DNA of 64,000 nt, taken from positions 372,001 through 436,000 of the forward strand of contig NZ_PIPN01000003.1 in the NCBI RefSeq assembly GCF_003986955.1, read 5' to 3'. The position numbers and the translations under genes were made by a program. This document shows positions 5,495 to 10,904 of this stretch, piece after piece. This DNA comes from Aliidiomarina sedimenti. Its GTDB lineage: Bacteria; Pseudomonadota; Gammaproteobacteria; Enterobacterales; Alteromonadaceae. Position 1 is the first letter of the stretch. Each line of letters begins with the position of its first letter. Under the pieces are notes generated by a model. It was not told the DNA's origin. It did not search any database and saw nothing but the letters and a program-made list of their open reading frames with translations.

Positions 5495-5965
5495 TTAGCG
5501 GCGCATGACGATGGCGGTTTCTTTTTTTCTTGCCGGGGGAACGGGAGGGTAGTAGCCGGGGCGTCGGCCGATGTCCTGAAAACCGTACTTTCTATATAGG
5601 GCGATGGCACTTCGGTTGCTTTCGCGCACTTCCAGAAATACTTTGTATTGCGGCTGGTTTTGCTTGTCGCTGGCGTAATTGAGCACGTCTTTTAGCAACA
5701 ATGCACCGTAGCCTTTGCCCTGATGCTCCGGGTGGACGGCGATATTCATTAGGGTGACTTCGTCGGCGACCAGACGGCAAATGGTGAAGCCTACGGGCTT
5801 TTGGTCGACGTACAGGGCCTGGGTGCGGTAGTACTTGCCGGTGCAGTCATTGAATGAGGTGCGCGACCAGGGCGCGCCATGGGCCGCGCATTCAATCAAA
5901 TAGAATTCGGGGGCGCTGATGTCGCAGGGGGCAATTAGTTTAGCCAGAGTTTCAGCTGGTTCCAT
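5495..5965 (-). CDS. rimI: Ribosomal protein S18-alanine N-acetyltransferase
   Basis: This is a GNAT-fold enzyme of 156 residues that transfers acetyl from acetyl-CoA to the N-terminal alanine of ribosomal protein S18. Visible motifs are the acetyl-CoA loop HPEHQGKGYG and the C-terminal block NRSAIALYRKYGF, both typical of RimI. I chose the ATG at 5965, which makes the gene overlap the 3' end of holD by 31 nt on the same strand. The holD-rimI order is the same as in Escherichia coli and supports both calls. The substrate gene rpsR is also in this window, at 61052. The gene converges on the carboxypeptidase gene with a gap of about 30 nt. Confidence 0.9.
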   Translation of the reverse strand: MEPAETLAKLIAPCDISAPEFYLIECAAHGAPWSRTSFNDCTGKYYRTQALYVDQKPVGFTICRLVADEVTLMNIAVHPEHQGKGYGALLLKDVLNYASDKQNQPQYKVFLEVRESNRSAIALYRKYGFQDIGRRPGYYPPVPPARKKETAIVMRR

Positions 5966-6453
5966 AGGTCGCGTTTTTCGTCCGGGCTTAATGTGGTCTT
6001 GCACCATGGGGTAATATCCAGGTGCGGTTGCTGTGGATCGGCTTTTATTTCTGTCAGCTGTTGCTGCAAATGACTGCTGAGATCTTTCAGCCACGGATAC
6101 AACTCCACCGGCAAACGCTCCGCCGTCCGCAACGTCCATCCCCCCAACCGATAGTGAAATTCAACATTCGAGCGCGGGGCTTGATCATTGAATTCCGACT
6201 CCGATTCAACATTCGAGCGCGGGGCTTGATCATTGAATTCCGACTCCGATTCAACATTCGAGCGCGGGGCTTGATCATTGAATTCCGACTCCGATTCAAC
6301 ATTCAGGCGCGGGGCTTGATCATTGAATGTTTGAGCGGTTGCTGATGGTTGGACGAATGAGTACAGCGGAATGCCGAGTGCCTGAAGGCTCTCGAGCTGA
6401 TGTCTGGTCCATTTGCTGGTTGCCGTTGCGGGCTTGTCGGGAGAATCGTTCAT
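5935..6453 (-). CDS. holD: DNA polymerase III psi subunit with in-frame repeat insertion
   Basis: Psi links the clamp loader to chi and single-strand binding protein in the replicative polymerase holoenzyme. The N-terminal segment (RHQLESLQALGIPLYSF) resembles the start of HolD, the C-terminal segment (ITPW...KRDLWNQL) fits the family, and the neighbour is rimI. Start: ATG at 6453, 24 nt after tRNA-Trp. Length is 172 residues. Residues 43-98 are a foreign-looking tandem array: four 11-residue units FNDQAPRxNVE joined by SESE linkers, encoded by the palindromic repeat at 6160-6327. Without it the protein would be about 116 residues, near or slightly below the usual size. The frame stays open, so the gene is probably functional; whether the insert affects activity is unknown. 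Confidence 0.8.
   Translation of the reverse strand: MNDSPDKPATATSKWTRHQLESLQALGIPLYSFVQPSATAQTFNDQAPRLNVESESEFNDQAPRSNVESESEFNDQAPRSNVESESEFNDQAPRSNVEFHYRLGGWTLRTAERLPVELYPWLKDLSSHLQQQLTEIKADPQQPHLDITPWCKTTLSPDEKRDLWNQLKLWLN
6160..6327 (-). repeat. Four tandem 33-nt palindromic repeats inside holD
   Basis: Units begin at 6160, 6205, 6250 and 6295, an exact 45-nt period made of a 33-nt element plus a 12-nt linker (TTCCGACTCCGA). Three units are identical; the one at 6295 differs by two bases. Each element begins TTCAA and ends TTGAA, with inner arms related to TCAAGC/GCTTGA around a CCCCGCG core, so it can fold as an imperfect hairpin. All four share one orientation. Both 33 and 45 are multiples of three, and the holD frame reads through without a stop, giving 56 inserted residues. 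Related copies lie at 6643-6720, 8847-8925 and 10310-10388. Confidence 0.95.
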
Positions 6454-6476
6454 GGTTCTGATGCTAGCATGAAAGT

Positions 6477-6553
6477 TGGCAGGGGTGGAGGGATTCGAAC
6501 CCCCAACCGTCGGTTTTGGAGACCGCTGTTCTACCAATTGGAACTACACCCCT
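6477..6553 (-). tRNA. tRNA-Trp (anticodon CCA)
   Basis: The complement reads AGGGGTGTAGTTCCAATTGG and onward, with the anticodon loop CTCCAAA flanked by a GCGGT/ACCGAC stem, a GGTTCGAATCC T-arm and an encoded GCCA 3' end. The seven-base acceptor stem AGGGGTG closes with CACCCCT. The sequence is close to Escherichia coli tRNA-Trp. The length of 77 nt includes the CCA tail. The holD start lies 24 nt downstream, so tRNA and holD-rimI may share a transcript. Confidence 0.96.
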
Positions 6554-6570
6554 GCCGATTGGTGCAGAGC

Positions 6571-6598
6571 ATTATACTGGCCCCCTTTGTTCAGGCAA
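6571..6598 (-). promoter_or_regulatory. Sigma70-type promoter for tRNA-Trp
   Basis: On the minus strand, TTGCCT (complement of 6593-6598) and a perfect TATAAT (complement of 6571-6576) are separated by 16 nt. The expected transcription start lies about 10 nt before the tRNA 5' end. A GC-rich segment between the -10 box and the start fits a stable-RNA promoter. Confidence 0.7.
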
Positions 6599-6642
6599 GG
6601 GAAAATTCGCTGCAGCGCAACCATTTGCGCAAATATCGAACA

Positions 6643-6720
6643 TTCAACGATCAAGCGCGGGGCTTGAACATTGAATTTCGATTTAGATTCAACATTCAAG
6701 CCCCGCGCTCGATCGTTGAA
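6643..6720. repeat. Inverted pair of 33-nt palindromic repeats
   Basis: Two 33-nt elements (6643-6675 and 6688-6720) lie in opposite orientation with a 12-nt spacer. Both keep the TTCAA...TTGAA ends; the first has the GCGCGGGGC core and the second the complementary GCCCCGCGC core, so the whole 78 nt can form one long hairpin as well as two short ones. The pair sits between the tRNA-Trp promoter and the divergent lipoprotein gene at 6790. Confidence 0.93.
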
Positions 6721-6789
6721 TGGTGGTGACGGGCGGTTGCTTTGTGGGTATGATTTAGCGCAATAATTCTTATAAACACGGAGTGTTCG

Positions 6790-8802
6790 ATGCGCTTACG
6801 AACGTTATTTAGTGCGGTCTGTTCGACGGTTTTTCTGGCGGGCTGCCTGTCATCAGGGGTTAAAGAGTCGCCGCAGGGACCATGCGAAGAGCGACTGCCT
6901 ACGGCTGAAGCCTTTGAAATTGAGGTGTCGCGTGGTTCGATCGCCTTTGTCGATGTATTTGAAGACGCAAATGCCAGTGCCAACGGCTGTGGCACTTTGC
7001 AGCTGGTGGCTGATAGTTGGCAGGATGGTGAAAAAGGCATTGTATATCGTTCGGAAGATCGTCCGAATGAGTTAGCCTACCTTGCTGACCGTGAAGCGAT
7101 TGGCGATGACGCTTTCAGTTATCGCATTACTAACGGATTCAACGAGCTTGAAGTGAATGTGTCGGTGCGTGTGTATCAACGGCTGACGCTTGAAGGAAGT
7201 TTTCCGCATGGCTGGATAACCGACCCTGAGGTTGACGTTCGTGGGGACGACGTGGGCGGTACAGGTGAGGTGACTGCAAACGGCGTGTTTGAAATAGAGC
7301 TGCGGCTGTTTAATCTTGAGAGCGATAAAAGCAGCCTGTTGACAGTCGCTGGTACTCGCAATGGCAGCCCGCTGACGCTGCACAGCATGTTGCCGGGAAC
7401 GCAAAGTGTTTATGCGGCGCGTTCTGGTGACAACCGCGTGACTGATACCGGCGTCGCTGGACTGCGAGTTAATGCGTTAACTACGGCGTACAGCATGTTG
7501 TTAAACGGCGCGTCTGCTCAGGCGTTGCAACTAAATGAAGACGAACTTGTCTGGTATGGTCGCGCTGTCGATAGTAATCGATTGGCTAACACAGCTGGCT
7601 GGATTTATCTTGTAGCGACAAATAGCAGCTATACGCTGCCTGAAGGCTATGAGACGACCTGGGAATTAGGCGCAGAGCTGGAGGCGCTTACTGCGTCTGT
7701 AGAGGAGGCTCAGCAGGCTGGTGATTTAGCGCCGGCGCTGGAGACTATGCTCGCTAATCGCGACTTGATGCCATCGTTGTCGAATGGCGATGTGGAAGGG
7801 CGTTTTACTGAGTTAGGAAGCCAGGTGCCGTGGTGGTCTCAAAGTGGCGAGCGAAGCTGGGTGGTGGAGACCGATGGCATATTTTGGCTGGATGGCGATA
7901 AGCAACTTCGCACATCGGACTACACGACGAATGGGGCTTTGATACGCGTAAACGATGCTCTGGCACCCTTTGAAGAACTGTATGTGCTGGCGAGTGACGA
8001 TTCTCAGTTAGTGCTATGGAGCGAGGGTGAAGCGTTTCGTCTTGAGCGCAAAGAGTATTCGCAGCGTTTGTCTTTGGCTTTTGATTTAACCCAGGACTGG
8101 GTGTTGCCTGCCCTGCCGGTTGCAGACGAAGGCTATACCCAAGCGGAGGTTGTCTATCGTTTTACCAATGGTAGCTTTAGTACGTCGCACGTCGATGAGT
8201 TGGGCGCGCAGATTGTTACCACTGGTAGCTACCAGTTAACGGAAGAAAATCAGGTGTTAGCGCTTACTGGCGATAACGGCGAACGGTATCGGATGCGACG
8301 CGTGAACAATGATGGGATCGGTTCAGTGCTGGTGGAGAATATTGAATCGGCCGCTTTGATGGTGGGATCTGGTTTTGTGCTGGAAGACGTTGAACCTCGA
8401 CCTCAGGCTACAGGTAGCGCGCTGGCGTCTTTGCGCGATTTTGTTGCGATCAACGCCTGGCATCGAACTGGCTTTACTGCAGAGGTTGACGCGTCTATTC
8501 GTTTGCAGAGCAATGGCACAGGCCTTCTGGTTGAGGGACCCGACAGTCTGGCGATTGAATGGGGCCTCGAACAGAGTGCAGGGCTGACTGATGTGGCTGC
8601 GCTGAATGCGGCGGCTGAGCCTTCGATTGACCTTGCCGGACGCCGTATTTTCTGGAAAGTTGTCGGTGAGAACAACGGCACTGAAGTGCGTGTTCTGGAA
8701 TGGTCCTTTATTGAAGATGAGGGCGCGTTGGTGCTTGACCAATTGCCCCAGGTTACCTTGCGTTGCCGTTCGATAGAGGCGTGCGCCACCAACTGGTGGT
8801 AA
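6790..8802 (+). CDS. Large lipoprotein of unknown function
   Basis: The protein has 670 residues with a type II signal peptide ending in FLAGC (Cys19), so it is probably lipid-anchored and exported. The start ATG at 6790 has a CGGAG ribosome-binding site. The part after the Cys looks like extracellular beta-sandwich material: short alternating hydrophobic strands, many Asn/Asp/Gly/Ser residues, and a segment near residues 90-125 (DDAFSYRITNGFNELEVNVS) reminiscent of cadherin- or Ig-like repeats. A middle helical stretch (about residues 290-330) contains many Glu and Ala. I do not recognise a named family. It has its own terminator and is flanked on both sides by repeat pairs, so it forms a stand-alone unit that may be lineage-specific. 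That last point is inference. Confidence 0.75.
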   Translation: MRLRTLFSAVCSTVFLAGCLSSGVKESPQGPCEERLPTAEAFEIEVSRGSIAFVDVFEDANASANGCGTLQLVADSWQDGEKGIVYRSEDRPNELAYLADREAIGDDAFSYRITNGFNELEVNVSVRVYQRLTLEGSFPHGWITDPEVDVRGDDVGGTGEVTANGVFEIELRLFNLESDKSSLLTVAGTRNGSPLTLHSMLPGTQSVYAARSGDNRVTDTGVAGLRVNALTTAYSMLLNGASAQALQLNEDELVWYGRAVDSNRLANTAGWIYLVATNSSYTLPEGYETTWELGAELEALTASVEEAQQAGDLAPALETMLANRDLMPSLSNGDVEGRFTELGSQVPWWSQSGERSWVVETDGIFWLDGDKQLRTSDYTTNGALIRVNDALAPFEELYVLASDDSQLVLWSEGEAFRLERKEYSQRLSLAFDLTQDWVLPALPVADEGYTQAEVVYRFTNGSFSTSHVDELGAQIVTTGSYQLTEENQVLALTGDNGERYRMRRVNNDGIGSVLVENIESAALMVGSGFVLEDVEPRPQATGSALASLRDFVAINAWHRTGFTAEVDASIRLQSNGTGLLVEGPDSLAIEWGLEQSAGLTDVAALNAAAEPSIDLAGRRIFWKVVGENNGTEVRVLEWSFIEDEGALVLDQLPQVTLRCRSIEACATNWW

Positions 8803-8818
8803 GGTTCTGGTGTTATTA

Positions 8819-8843
8819 AAAGGCTGCTGCGGTGGCCTTTTTT
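8819..8843 (+). terminator. Rho-independent terminator of the 6790-8802 lipoprotein gene
   Basis: The stem AAAGGC (8819-8824) pairs with GCCTTT (8835-8840) across a 10-nt loop and runs into a T-tract. It begins 17 nt after the stop codon. Confidence 0.75.
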
Positions 8844-8846
8844 ACA

Positions 8847-8925
8847 TTCAAGATTCAGGCGCGGGGCTTGAATCTTGAATTGGTTTTACCAATTCAATGA
8901 TCAAGCCCCGCGCTCGATTGTTGAA
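8847..8925. repeat. Inverted pair of 33-nt palindromic repeats before the phzF-like gene
   Basis: Elements at 8847-8879 and 8893-8925 face each other across a 13-nt spacer. The pair starts just after the terminator of the upstream gene and ends 10 nt before the ATG of the PhzF-family gene, so the ribosome-binding site of that gene lies directly against the repeat. Confidence 0.93.
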
Positions 8926-8935
8926 TGGGAGTGGT

Positions 8936-9742
8936 ATGCGGTTGTATCAGGTGGATGCGTTTAGTGATGAGGTGTTTGCTGGCAATCCGGCGGCGGTGGC
9001 GCTGTTGGATGAATGGCTGGATGACGGGGTGTTGCAGCAAATAGCTGAGGAGAACAATCTGTCAGAGACTGCTTTCCTGGTGGCTGCGAGCGATGCGAAA
9101 ACGGACTACGAGTTGCGCTGGTTTACTCCGGCGGCCGAAGTCGATTTGTGTGGCCATGCCACGCTGGCGAGCGCCCACGTGTTGTTCGAACATTGCGATG
9201 TGGACGCTTCTACATTGTCGTTTGCAACCCGCAGTGGAGTCCTGACGGTGGCTCAGCAAGAGGATGGTTTGCTGGTGATGGACTTCCCGTTAAGTGAGTT
9301 AAAGGAAGTGACGTTTCCGGCCAGTTTAATGCGCGGAATTGGTGCGGAGCCGATGCAGGTGCTGAAAGACTTTGACTATATTGCGGTGCTCAATAGCGAA
9401 GCCGAAGTACGGGCGCTTAAGCCGAACTTTAGCGCGTTGTGCGAACTGGACGGACGCGGTGTGTTGGTGACAGCAGCGGGCGAGGATTGTGATTTTGTTA
9501 GCCGCTGTTTCTTCCCTAAACTTCGGGTCGACGAAGATCCAGTGACCGGATCAGCACATTGTGAACTGGCGGCATACTGGTCTGAACGGCTCGGCAAATC
9601 AAAACTTAACGCGAAGCAGCTGTCTGCGCGTGGCGGGTCCATTGAGTGTGAGGTGCTTGCCGGTCAGCAGGCAGCACGGGTTTTACTGAAGGGGCGTGCG
9701 GTGACTTACCTTGAAGGGACCATTCGTTTGCGGGACCGTTGA
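8936..9742 (+). CDS. PhzF family isomerase-like protein
   Basis: The protein has 268 residues with the PhzF/YddE fold signature: an N-terminal YQVDAFSDEVFAGNPAAV, the catalytic glutamate context NNLSETAF, a CGHATLASAH block, and DPVTGSAHCELA in the second half. Family members are two-domain proteins related to diaminopimelate epimerase; PhzF itself isomerises a phenazine precursor, but most homologues, including YddE, have no firmly known substrate. No phenazine genes are nearby, so that pathway is not implied. I chose the ATG at 8936 because GGGAG lies just before it. Longer in-frame starts would lie inside the 33-nt repeat and would add repeat-coded residues. Confidence 0.88.
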   Translation: MRLYQVDAFSDEVFAGNPAAVALLDEWLDDGVLQQIAEENNLSETAFLVAASDAKTDYELRWFTPAAEVDLCGHATLASAHVLFEHCDVDASTLSFATRSGVLTVAQQEDGLLVMDFPLSELKEVTFPASLMRGIGAEPMQVLKDFDYIAVLNSEAEVRALKPNFSALCELDGRGVLVTAAGEDCDFVSRCFFPKLRVDEDPVTGSAHCELAAYWSERLGKSKLNAKQLSARGGSIECEVLAGQQAARVLLKGRAVTYLEGTIRLRDR

Positions 9743-9803
9743 GCTTGAAACTAAGGCTTTCCGGCAATGTTATGTTGAACCAGAACTTAAGCTGCAGCAA
9801 GAG

Positions 9804-10268
9804 CTAGCGCTGCAGCGCTAAGCGCATAAGAAGGCGGTCCTCACCCGGGCCGAGAAAGTCTTTACGCAGCTCGATGGCTTCAAAACCCAGGCTAAGATAG
9901 AGTTGCATCGCCGCCTGATTGTATTCGGCGACACTAAGCCATAGCCCTTGTTGGCCCTGATCTCTGCAATGGTTAATAGCAGCTTCGCATAGTTTTCGGC
10001 CGATACCCTTACCACGTCCCGCAGCGGCCACCAATAACGCCATTAGCCAGGGTTCTGCAGCGGAACCCTGTGCGCTTTGTGCTGGCGCTATAAGCGCATA
10101 GCCCATTAACTGATTTTCACTTTGAGCAACCCACAACGCGGCTGGCCATTGGCGCAACGCCTGATACAAAAAGCCCGCCGGATAGCCTTCCTGTTGATAA
10201 TAGTGCTGCTCAAGCTCGGCGATAGCTGGAATGTCCGTCGTTGTGGCGGTGGTGATGCTGATAGTCAC
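9804..10268 (-). CDS. GNAT family N-acetyltransferase
   Basis: The protein has 154 residues with a GNAT fold. The acetyl-CoA binding loop is seen in AGRGKGIGRKLCEAAI (R-x-x-G-x-G/A type), and the C-terminal strand-helix YNQAAMQLYLSLGFE is typical. The start is a GTG at 10268 preceded by AAGGA. The substrate cannot be deduced. The gene converges on the PhzF-like gene across 61 nt that contain the self-complementary GCTGCAGC...GCTGCAGC but no T-tract. Upstream it faces the repeat pair at 10310-10388. Confidence 0.85.
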   Translation of the reverse strand: MTISITTATTTDIPAIAELEQHYYQQEGYPAGFLYQALRQWPAALWVAQSENQLMGYALIAPAQSAQGSAAEPWLMALLVAAAGRGKGIGRKLCEAAINHCRDQGQQGLWLSVAEYNQAAMQLYLSLGFEAIELRKDFLGPGEDRLLMRLALQR

Positions 10269-10309
10269 TGGCTGATTCCTTAGGTATATGTTCTAGCTGA
10301 CCGAGCAAA

Positions 10310-10388
10310 TTCAATGATCAAGCCCCGCGCCCGAACGTTGAATCGAATTTACCGATTCAAGATTCAAGCCCCGCGCTTGAATGTTGAA
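10310..10388. repeat. Direct pair of 33-nt palindromic repeats abutting a stop codon
   Basis: Elements at 10310-10342 and 10356-10388 have the same orientation and a 13-nt spacer (starting TCGAATTTACC). The second element ends at 10388, and the stop codon of the next gene (complement of 10389-10391) begins at the following base. The pair therefore forms the immediate 3' flank of that gene and may act as an mRNA-end hairpin. Confidence 0.93.
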
Positions 10389-10904
10389 TCAGGTGGGTTG
10401 GAGGAGGTGGTGGTTGAGCTCCTGGTAGATGGAGAGTTCGTAGCTGTGGCGGCCCTGGTTAGGGTCTTCGATGGCGCTGACGGCTTTGATGTTGTCGACG
10501 TACTGCTGAACGATGCCGTGTTCGAGGGCGCCGGTGAGGACGTGGTATTTGTACCAGCTATAGGGCTGTAAGGTGTCGTCGATATCGGTGCCGACATAGG
10601 TAAAGGCGGGCAACGTGCGGCCTTCCTGAAGCACCACCTTGACGTCAGTAACGGCGTAGCCAAAGCCCTGGCCTTCGATGCGGTCGAGGGTGTAACGCTG
10701 GTCCTCGGGGATGCGATAAACGACTCCCAGGGTGCCGGCCCCGGGCTGAGACTCGATGGTGCACTTGGCGGAACCGTCATGACTATGTTTGCGGAAGGTC
10801 ATGACGTAGTCACTAAGGTGAGCGACGCCAACGGCCCGCGCACTAGGTACCCGGGCCAGTAGTCGGCGGCTTGACATGTTTGAGCCGTAGGCAAAGTAAA
10901 ACAT
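10389..10904 (-). CDS. Gamma-glutamylcyclotransferase family protein
   Basis: The protein has 171 residues and begins FYFAYGSNMSSRRL, which carries the YGSNM signature of the gamma-glutamylcyclotransferase (AIG2/BtrG-like) fold. The region VVYRIPEDQRYTLDRIEG also fits the family, with an acidic residue near the expected catalytic position. Such enzymes release 5-oxoproline from gamma-glutamyl amines or amino acids; the exact substrate is not visible. It begins 2 nt after the stop of the flavin oxidoreductase gene, so the two are co-transcribed and probably coupled. Its stop codon directly abuts a 33-nt repeat, so its C-terminal end may have been reset by the insertion (inference). Confidence 0.85.
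   Translation of the reverse strand: MFYFAYGSNMSSRRLLARVPSARAVGVAHLSDYVMTFRKHSHDGSAKCTIESQPGAGTLGVVYRIPEDQRYTLDRIEGQGFGYAVTDVKVVLQEGRTLPAFTYVGTDIDDTLQPYSWYKYHVLTGALEHGIVQQYVDNIKAVSAIEDPNQGRHSYELSIYQELNHHLLQPT

Follow-up and report, generated by a model that had tools for sequence, protein, structure and literature searches.

In-frame palindromic repeats in the probable psi subunit gene of Aliidiomarina sedimenti and their probable mobilisation by a RAYT-type transposase

The window, a 64,000-nucleotide stretch of the Aliidiomarina sedimenti genome, carries an open reading frame (ORF) in the position of holD, the gene for the psi subunit of DNA polymerase III. Within this ORF lies an array of four small palindromic repeats, and further copies of the same family follow on its upstream side. 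Throughout, G000 denotes the A. sedimenti genome studied (an assembly of 10 contigs), G010 its sister Aliidiomarina soli and the other G numbers further genomes of the genus, while C numbers denote the contigs of a genome and L numbers extracted stretches with coordinates of their own. The features of the locus are listed by window position.

5495 to 5965, minus strand: rimI, ribosomal protein S18-alanine N-acetyltransferase (TIGR01575, 5.5e-31, above cut-off), overlapping the 3' end of the ORF in the holD position
5935 to 6453, minus strand: ORF in the holD position, probable DNA polymerase III psi subunit, 172 amino acids, holding the array (ORF scan; orthologues in 17 of 17 genus genomes; rimI overlap as in E. 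coli)
6159 to 6193, minus strand: unit 4 in coding order (FNDQAPRSNVE), the last before the C-terminal domain
6204 to 6238, minus strand: unit 3 in coding order, identical to units 2 and 4
6249 to 6283, minus strand: unit 2 in coding order, identical to units 3 and 4
6294 to 6328, minus strand: unit 1 in coding order (FNDQAPRLNVE), with two base differences, identical to unit 1 of A. soli
6477 to 6553, minus strand: tRNA-Trp, upstream of the ORF in the holD position
6642 to 6721, no strand: inverted pair of the same repeat family (6642 to 6676 and 6687 to 6721), outside credible genes
8846 to 8926, no strand: inverted pair of the same repeat family
10309 to 10389, minus strand: direct pair of the same repeat family

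The array spans positions 6159 to 6328 and consists of four 35-nt palindromes (ATTCAA...TTGAAT) spaced at 45, 45 and 45 nt; Tandem Repeats Finder delimits the same interval with a period of 45, 3.8 copies and 98 % matches. The 35-nt pattern matches the window 10 times, 100 shuffles yield no match, and this result, together with a reversed control that gives no match, excludes chance as the origin of the pattern. The original prediction described a four-unit array inserted in frame without a stop, and ORF reading, pattern search and Tandem Repeats Finder all bear this out. The minus-strand ORF starts with ATG and traverses the array stop-free, and on conceptual translation the 56 added residues (43 to 98) form four FNDQAPRxNVE blocks linked by SESE, a peptide that includes FNDQAPRSNVESESE. 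Thus, as far as predicted translation can tell, a palindromic repeat lies in frame within a conserved gene. Three of the four units are identical, as had been stated, and the two bases that set unit 1 apart are the sole exception. The element had been given as 33 nt, which is the whole-codon part of a palindrome that measures 35 nt. Its period of 45 nt stands but is not special to the gene: non-coding neighbours in the same orientation in G000 are spaced at 35, 42, 43, 43, 45, 46, 51 and 53 nt, which rules out a period divisible by three as a coding adaptation. Within a coding frame, only periods divisible by three survive. Folded as RNA, the array is mildly more stable than its shuffles (z -1.99, with 8 of 200 shuffles equally good).

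Gene order makes it likely that the ORF is holD, since it overlaps rimI by 31 bp compared with 32 bp for holD and rimI in E. coli K-12. Homology to psi was not detected by sequence. The Pfam psi family (PF03603), which recognizes E. coli HolD as a positive control at E 1.2e-46, does not match the protein; across G000 it yields just two sub-threshold matches, both elsewhere and at chance level (E 0.20 and 0.29), and among the 17 orthologues none above threshold and a single sub-threshold one of 13 residues (E 0.016). The 17-sequence alignment compared with E. coli HolD by hhalign gave a probability of 2.4 %, and a profile search of the PDB with the orthologues returned no match at E <= 10. An AlphaFold model built from two sequences has a mean pLDDT of 44, too low for a fold search, and a MAFFT alignment with E. 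coli HolD misplaced the N-terminus and was discarded. The earlier naming of the gene therefore agrees with gene order and the rimI overlap but not with PF03603 and hhalign, neither of which brings out psi homology.

Relatives of the protein are present in all 17 genus genomes and in none of the 21 genomes from outside the genus (38 in all). Alignment of the 17 orthologues reveals a short conserved N-terminal segment (WT..Q...L.ALGIP.Y) and a C-terminal domain, separated by a linker of very variable length. E. coli psi contacts the clamp loader through an N-terminal peptide and chi through the remainder of the protein. The array falls between the two conserved parts, in keeping with the expected position just after the N-terminal part, and the wide variation in linker length fits the idea that a longer linker could be tolerated.

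The open frame might instead be fortuitous in an ORF that has decayed or is not translated. Such decay would fit the missing Pfam psi match and a dN/dS that is not low: outside the array, 5 synonymous and 9 non-synonymous changes separate the sister holD genes, a dN/dS of about 0.5 that, on so few differences, is weak evidence of constraint. Against decay, the frame is kept in both sisters despite different unit numbers, the N- and C-terminal segments are conserved in 17 of 17 genomes, and the adjoining, overlapped rimI is intact. Moreover, no other site in G000 encodes a relative of the protein apart from repeat copies, so that a second intact holD, which would have counted against the original prediction, was not found. 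Collectively, these points make a decayed ORF very unlikely.

In A. soli the insertion occupies the same place with two units rather than four. Its first unit has the same DNA sequence as unit 1 of A. sedimenti, and its second is the last A. sedimenti unit with two changes. Length variation, which had been suspected among strains, is thereby demonstrated between sister species. Since the insertion is common to both, it is older than the sister split, and the simplest history that the sequences suggest is a two-unit ancestor followed by expansion in A. sedimenti; units may instead have been lost in A. soli. An assembly error in the array or its unit number would be in line with the three identical 45-nt units, with an assembly of 10 contigs and with a unit number taken from the assembly. 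It is nevertheless highly improbable, given that the A. soli assembly bears the same insertion with two divergent units and that, at 170 nt, the array is nearly or fully spanned by most short reads. Even if such an error is considered, the exact number of four alone would be in doubt and not the array itself.

The repeat is by no means confined to this gene. At up to 3 mismatches, the 35-nt pattern has 66 matches in G000, some sites being counted on both strands, against none for its reversed control, while the 13-nt core occurs at 78 sites against one. A consensus over 69 of the 78 copies has the core GCGCGGGGCTTGA. When neighbours within 200 bp are merged, the core sites form 39 loci, mostly inverted pairs. 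Among ORFs of at least 100 amino acids, the holD array is the only one of the 39 loci inside a credible gene, so G000 has a single repeat-bearing protein gene where G002 and G004 have several. Two further loci have at least 20 codons on each side, in ORFs of 140 and 107 amino acids that were rejected as spurious since they overlap longer ORFs on the opposite strand; the remaining loci fall in the gaps between ORFs, at the ends of ORFs or within short frames. A. soli is similar: over the first 240 kb of the corresponding contig there are 27 loci, and only the one in holD falls inside an ORF that extends at least 20 codons beyond it in both directions. In the 15 other genus genomes the 35-nt pattern is absent at up to 3 mismatches (reversed control 0), and the 13-mer by itself turns up in four further genomes among the 38, at one to three sites each.

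Of 65 copies examined outside holD, all are stop-free in the frame that holD uses and 61 in one frame of the opposite orientation; nine copies of four rRNA-linked loci are left out of these counts. Landing in the holD frame would therefore need no repair. Those four loci, among the ten that lie outside C4, each include a repeat pair spaced at 70 nt close to a contig end and to a 5S rRNA gene on the stretch (L095, L097, L078 and L079), and they look like one repeat pair copied with rRNA operons.

Most loci gather around a transposase gene. The Y1_Tnp domain (PF01797) has a single match in G000, which is above cut-off and lies at C4:307117-307446, in an ORF of 290 amino acids whose sequence shows an HxH motif (NHYHVL) and, just ahead of NPV, a tyrosine. 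NCBIfam's REP-associated tyrosine transposase model (NF047646) matches at 2.6e-18 with 66.3 bits, below its cut-off of 80. Repeat pairs in inverted orientation flank the gene; measured from the domain centre, one lies 342 bp ahead and another 664 bp behind. On C4, 29 of the 39 loci lie between 178 and 382 kb, all within 130 kb of the transposase and 7 within 5 kb, and all other contigs together hold ten. Within 100 kb there are 26 loci where 2.7 would be expected (binomial p 3e-21, with loci treated as independent). Expressed as loci per 10 kb, density is 8.0 at 0-2.5 kb, 6.0 at 2.5-5 kb, 1.0 at 5-10 kb, 1.67 at 10-25 kb, 0.8 at 25-50 kb, 1.35 at 50-76 kb and 0.46 at 76-130 kb, and it is 0 beyond 130 kb on C4 and 0.04 on other contigs. 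The holD array is 71 kb from the transposase. Positions 6159 to 10389 of the window form the right edge of this concentration, and a search for the 35-nt pattern with up to 3 mismatches finds nothing in the window to the right of the 10309 to 10389 pair.

With good confidence, the array can be read as an in-frame-open cluster of a small palindromic repeat that was probably mobilised by the single RAYT-type Y1 (HUH) transposase of G000. The family surrounds and flanks the transposase and thins with distance; mobilisation, a preference for nearby sites, tolerance by the linker and later duplication are inferred. Against a RAYT origin, the repeat lacks a GT(A/G)G head (base counts by position in 69 of the 78 copies reveal no conserved tetranucleotide of this kind beside the palindrome), the NCBIfam score is sub-cut-off, and G007 has repeat clusters without a Y1_Tnp match. 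Gene conversion that preserves an ancient local cluster could also account for the clustering. Recent tandem expansion, the origin first proposed, is favoured by the difference of four against two units and by the three identical 45-nt units, but that proposal missed the dispersed family. As this family clusters round the RAYT, the origin most likely lies in insertion of a mobile repeat and then tandem expansion. Local tandem duplication within holD, without any mobile element, might be argued from the tandem peptides of other sequence in the linkers of G012 and G015. For the unit itself it is contradicted by the same core at 38 other G000 loci and by the restriction of the 35-nt pattern described above, which leave it hardly any probability; as the cause of the change from two to four units, duplication is likely.

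Repeats have entered the same linker elsewhere in the genus. In 16 genomes, the holD frame was compared with 11-mers occurring at least four times near the genome's own RAYT. Linker matches were obtained in G000, G010, G004 and G002, a single doubtful 12-nt linker match in G008, and matches solely upstream of the likely start in G015 and G016; nine other genomes had no 11-mer match in the holD frame. In G007, which has no Y1_Tnp match, the linker holds two one-mismatch copies of the G004-type 13-mer in another codon phase. Of the 25 matches to this 13-mer in G007, 20 lie on the holD contig, with 6 matches to the reversed-pattern control in the same genome; its transposase may be lost or missed. 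In total, 5 of 17 genus genomes have repeats in the holD linker, three of them outside the clade of G000 and A. soli and with other repeats. The repeats of G002 and G004 share sequence mutually and not with those of G000, and the holD copies of G002 run in the orientation opposite to those of G004. On a RimI tree, G000 and G010 group with G005, G008 and G011 (100/99, with only 17 % of the G005 row filled), G004 pairs with G007 (98/95), and G002 has no firm placement. The presence of repeats in the linker requires at least two changes on this tree and therefore at least two independent captures; there were probably more than two. The linkers of G015 and G012 (L041 and L042) are long and hold other tandem peptides (PSPADAAKQPET and AEAPKT), which do not match repeats near the local RAYT.

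In-frame repeats are also found in other protein genes. Both G004 and G002 have them in genes for a DNA photolyase and a beta-CASP nuclease and in gltB, and G002 has them additionally in genes for an aminotransferase and a periplasmic binding protein. The shared cases are as follows.

L155:7651-9087, G004: photolyase gene with repeats
L158:15027-16670, G004: beta-CASP nuclease gene with repeats
L159:13761-18329, G004: gltB with repeats
L164:3152-4540, G002: photolyase gene with repeats
L167:14994-16526, G002: beta-CASP nuclease gene with repeats
L168:12887-17806, G002: gltB with repeats

Loci in Pfam-supported ORFs plus holD amount to 5 of 13 in G004 and 6 of 19 in G002, counts that leave out one G004 and two G002 loci whose ORFs lack a Pfam match (142 and 357 amino acids) or were unscanned (119 amino acids). 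These genes bear on the idea that selection keeps the linker repeats, with a lengthened or altered tether between the clamp-loader peptide and the chi-binding domain and a copy number that tunes replication. Recurrence in five genomes from at least two origins speaks for selection, as do the long linkers of other tandem peptides in G012 and G015. However, the other 12 genomes, G008 with its doubtful match among them, have linkers of very different length without such repeats, and holD is not unique among genes in bearing them. In G002 and G004 the holD-position gene is about 1 kb from the RAYT, so insertions there are likely by proximity alone. Selection is on the whole an unlikely explanation. 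More speculative, and a long shot, is a model in which RAYT repeats colonise the psi linker time and again since an altered lagging-strand subunit would feed back on the single-strand-dependent copying of the transposase, while coding copies would be overwritten to each species' current repeat, a form of concerted evolution into proteins. Overwriting would fit the photolyase repeats of G002 and G004, which by eye appear to share an insertion place, each resembling its own genome's family.

Clustering round a RAYT extends across the genus. Loci within 100 kb number 24 of 37 in G010, 11 of 15 in G004, 17 of 18 in G002 and 20 of 26 in G001, with a bias toward such copies since repeat families were picked from RAYT neighbourhoods, a bias that whole-genome counts answer partly. 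Among the matches listed for G012 (100 of 107), 92 surround the RAYT (at 1050.6 kb) on C4:983-1191 kb and the other 8 are on C6; in G015, 44 repeat matches are spread over several contigs. Of 17 regions round Y1_Tnp genes in 14 other genus genomes, only that of G003 lacks a 13-mer repeated at least four times, the nature of these 13-mers having been inspected closely for G002 and G004. Repeated words near the RAYTs of G002, G008 and G009 contain GGGGWSAS. Arrays with a 45-nt period also occur outside holD in another repeat family of G012 (C4:1048125-1048320 and 1111004-1111154), and in G001 a different repeat forms tandem arrays near the RAYT gene with a period of 24 nt (L142, C28:116001-136000).

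Returning to mobilisation by the RAYT, the transposase would have copied its repeats, most likely via single-stranded intermediates and with a preference for sites close to its own gene. One or two of the copies may then have landed in the psi linker, a length-tolerant and probably disordered segment, in a stop-free frame. The later change from two to four units could be ordinary tandem duplication by slippage or unequal recombination, and the added peptide most likely amounts to a tolerated spacer that brings no new function. Taken together, the genus offers a clean natural series for a known yet little-tested process, comprising a transposase, repeats that thin with distance and coding insertions of different age. 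The replication-gene setting is probable, the sisters differ in units, and at least two lineages appear to have been struck in the same linker by unrelated repeats. Two questions can be addressed with such a series: do RAYTs act locally, and do flexible-linker proteins absorb mobile DNA?

The capture is a recurrent event of an already known kind, and no basic idea is changed because local accumulation and intragenic REPs are already in print. In the main texts of open-licence papers, searches for the psi subunit with repetitive extragenic palindromic sequences and for Aliidiomarina transposases with palindromic repeats found none, and the gene, the change of unit number between sisters and the recurrence in one linker are apparently without precedent there. 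REPs have been described as accumulating near their rayt gene (Nunvar et al. 2010, PMC2817692), in contrast to the random distribution of REP doublets in the extragenic space of P. fluorescens (Bertels and Rainey 2011, PMC3116915). Rickettsia palindromic elements are likewise small palindromes in frame in conserved protein genes, reviewed as 105-146 bp long and in 19 reading frames (PMC2229807); the G000 unit differs in its 35 bp and in occupying one gene among 39 loci. TIRYTs are tyrosine transposases of species without GTAG REPs, flanked by partly self-complementary TIR repeats of which many form dimers or clusters (PMC3733652), and the GGGGWSAS motif shared by some TIRs only is absent from the core in the consensus of 69 of the 78 G000 copies. 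The sections of Di Nocera et al. (2013, PMC3733652) on intragenic REPs describe REPs wholly inside ORFs, some clusters encoding 43-82 amino acids, many of them in DNA synthesis and repair genes; in recB, two Xanthomonas species have different REPs at roughly one and the same position. The array resembles these in lying within an ORF of probable replication function, and differs in that the families there are tagged GTAG or CGTC and that holD is not named in those sections. From RAYT-associated REPs and BIMEs the G000 repeat departs in having another sequence without the GT(A/G)G head and one cluster in a coding gene, while it shares with them an imperfect palindrome with a GC-rich part, many copies, doublets and inverted pairs flanking the Y1_Tnp gene.
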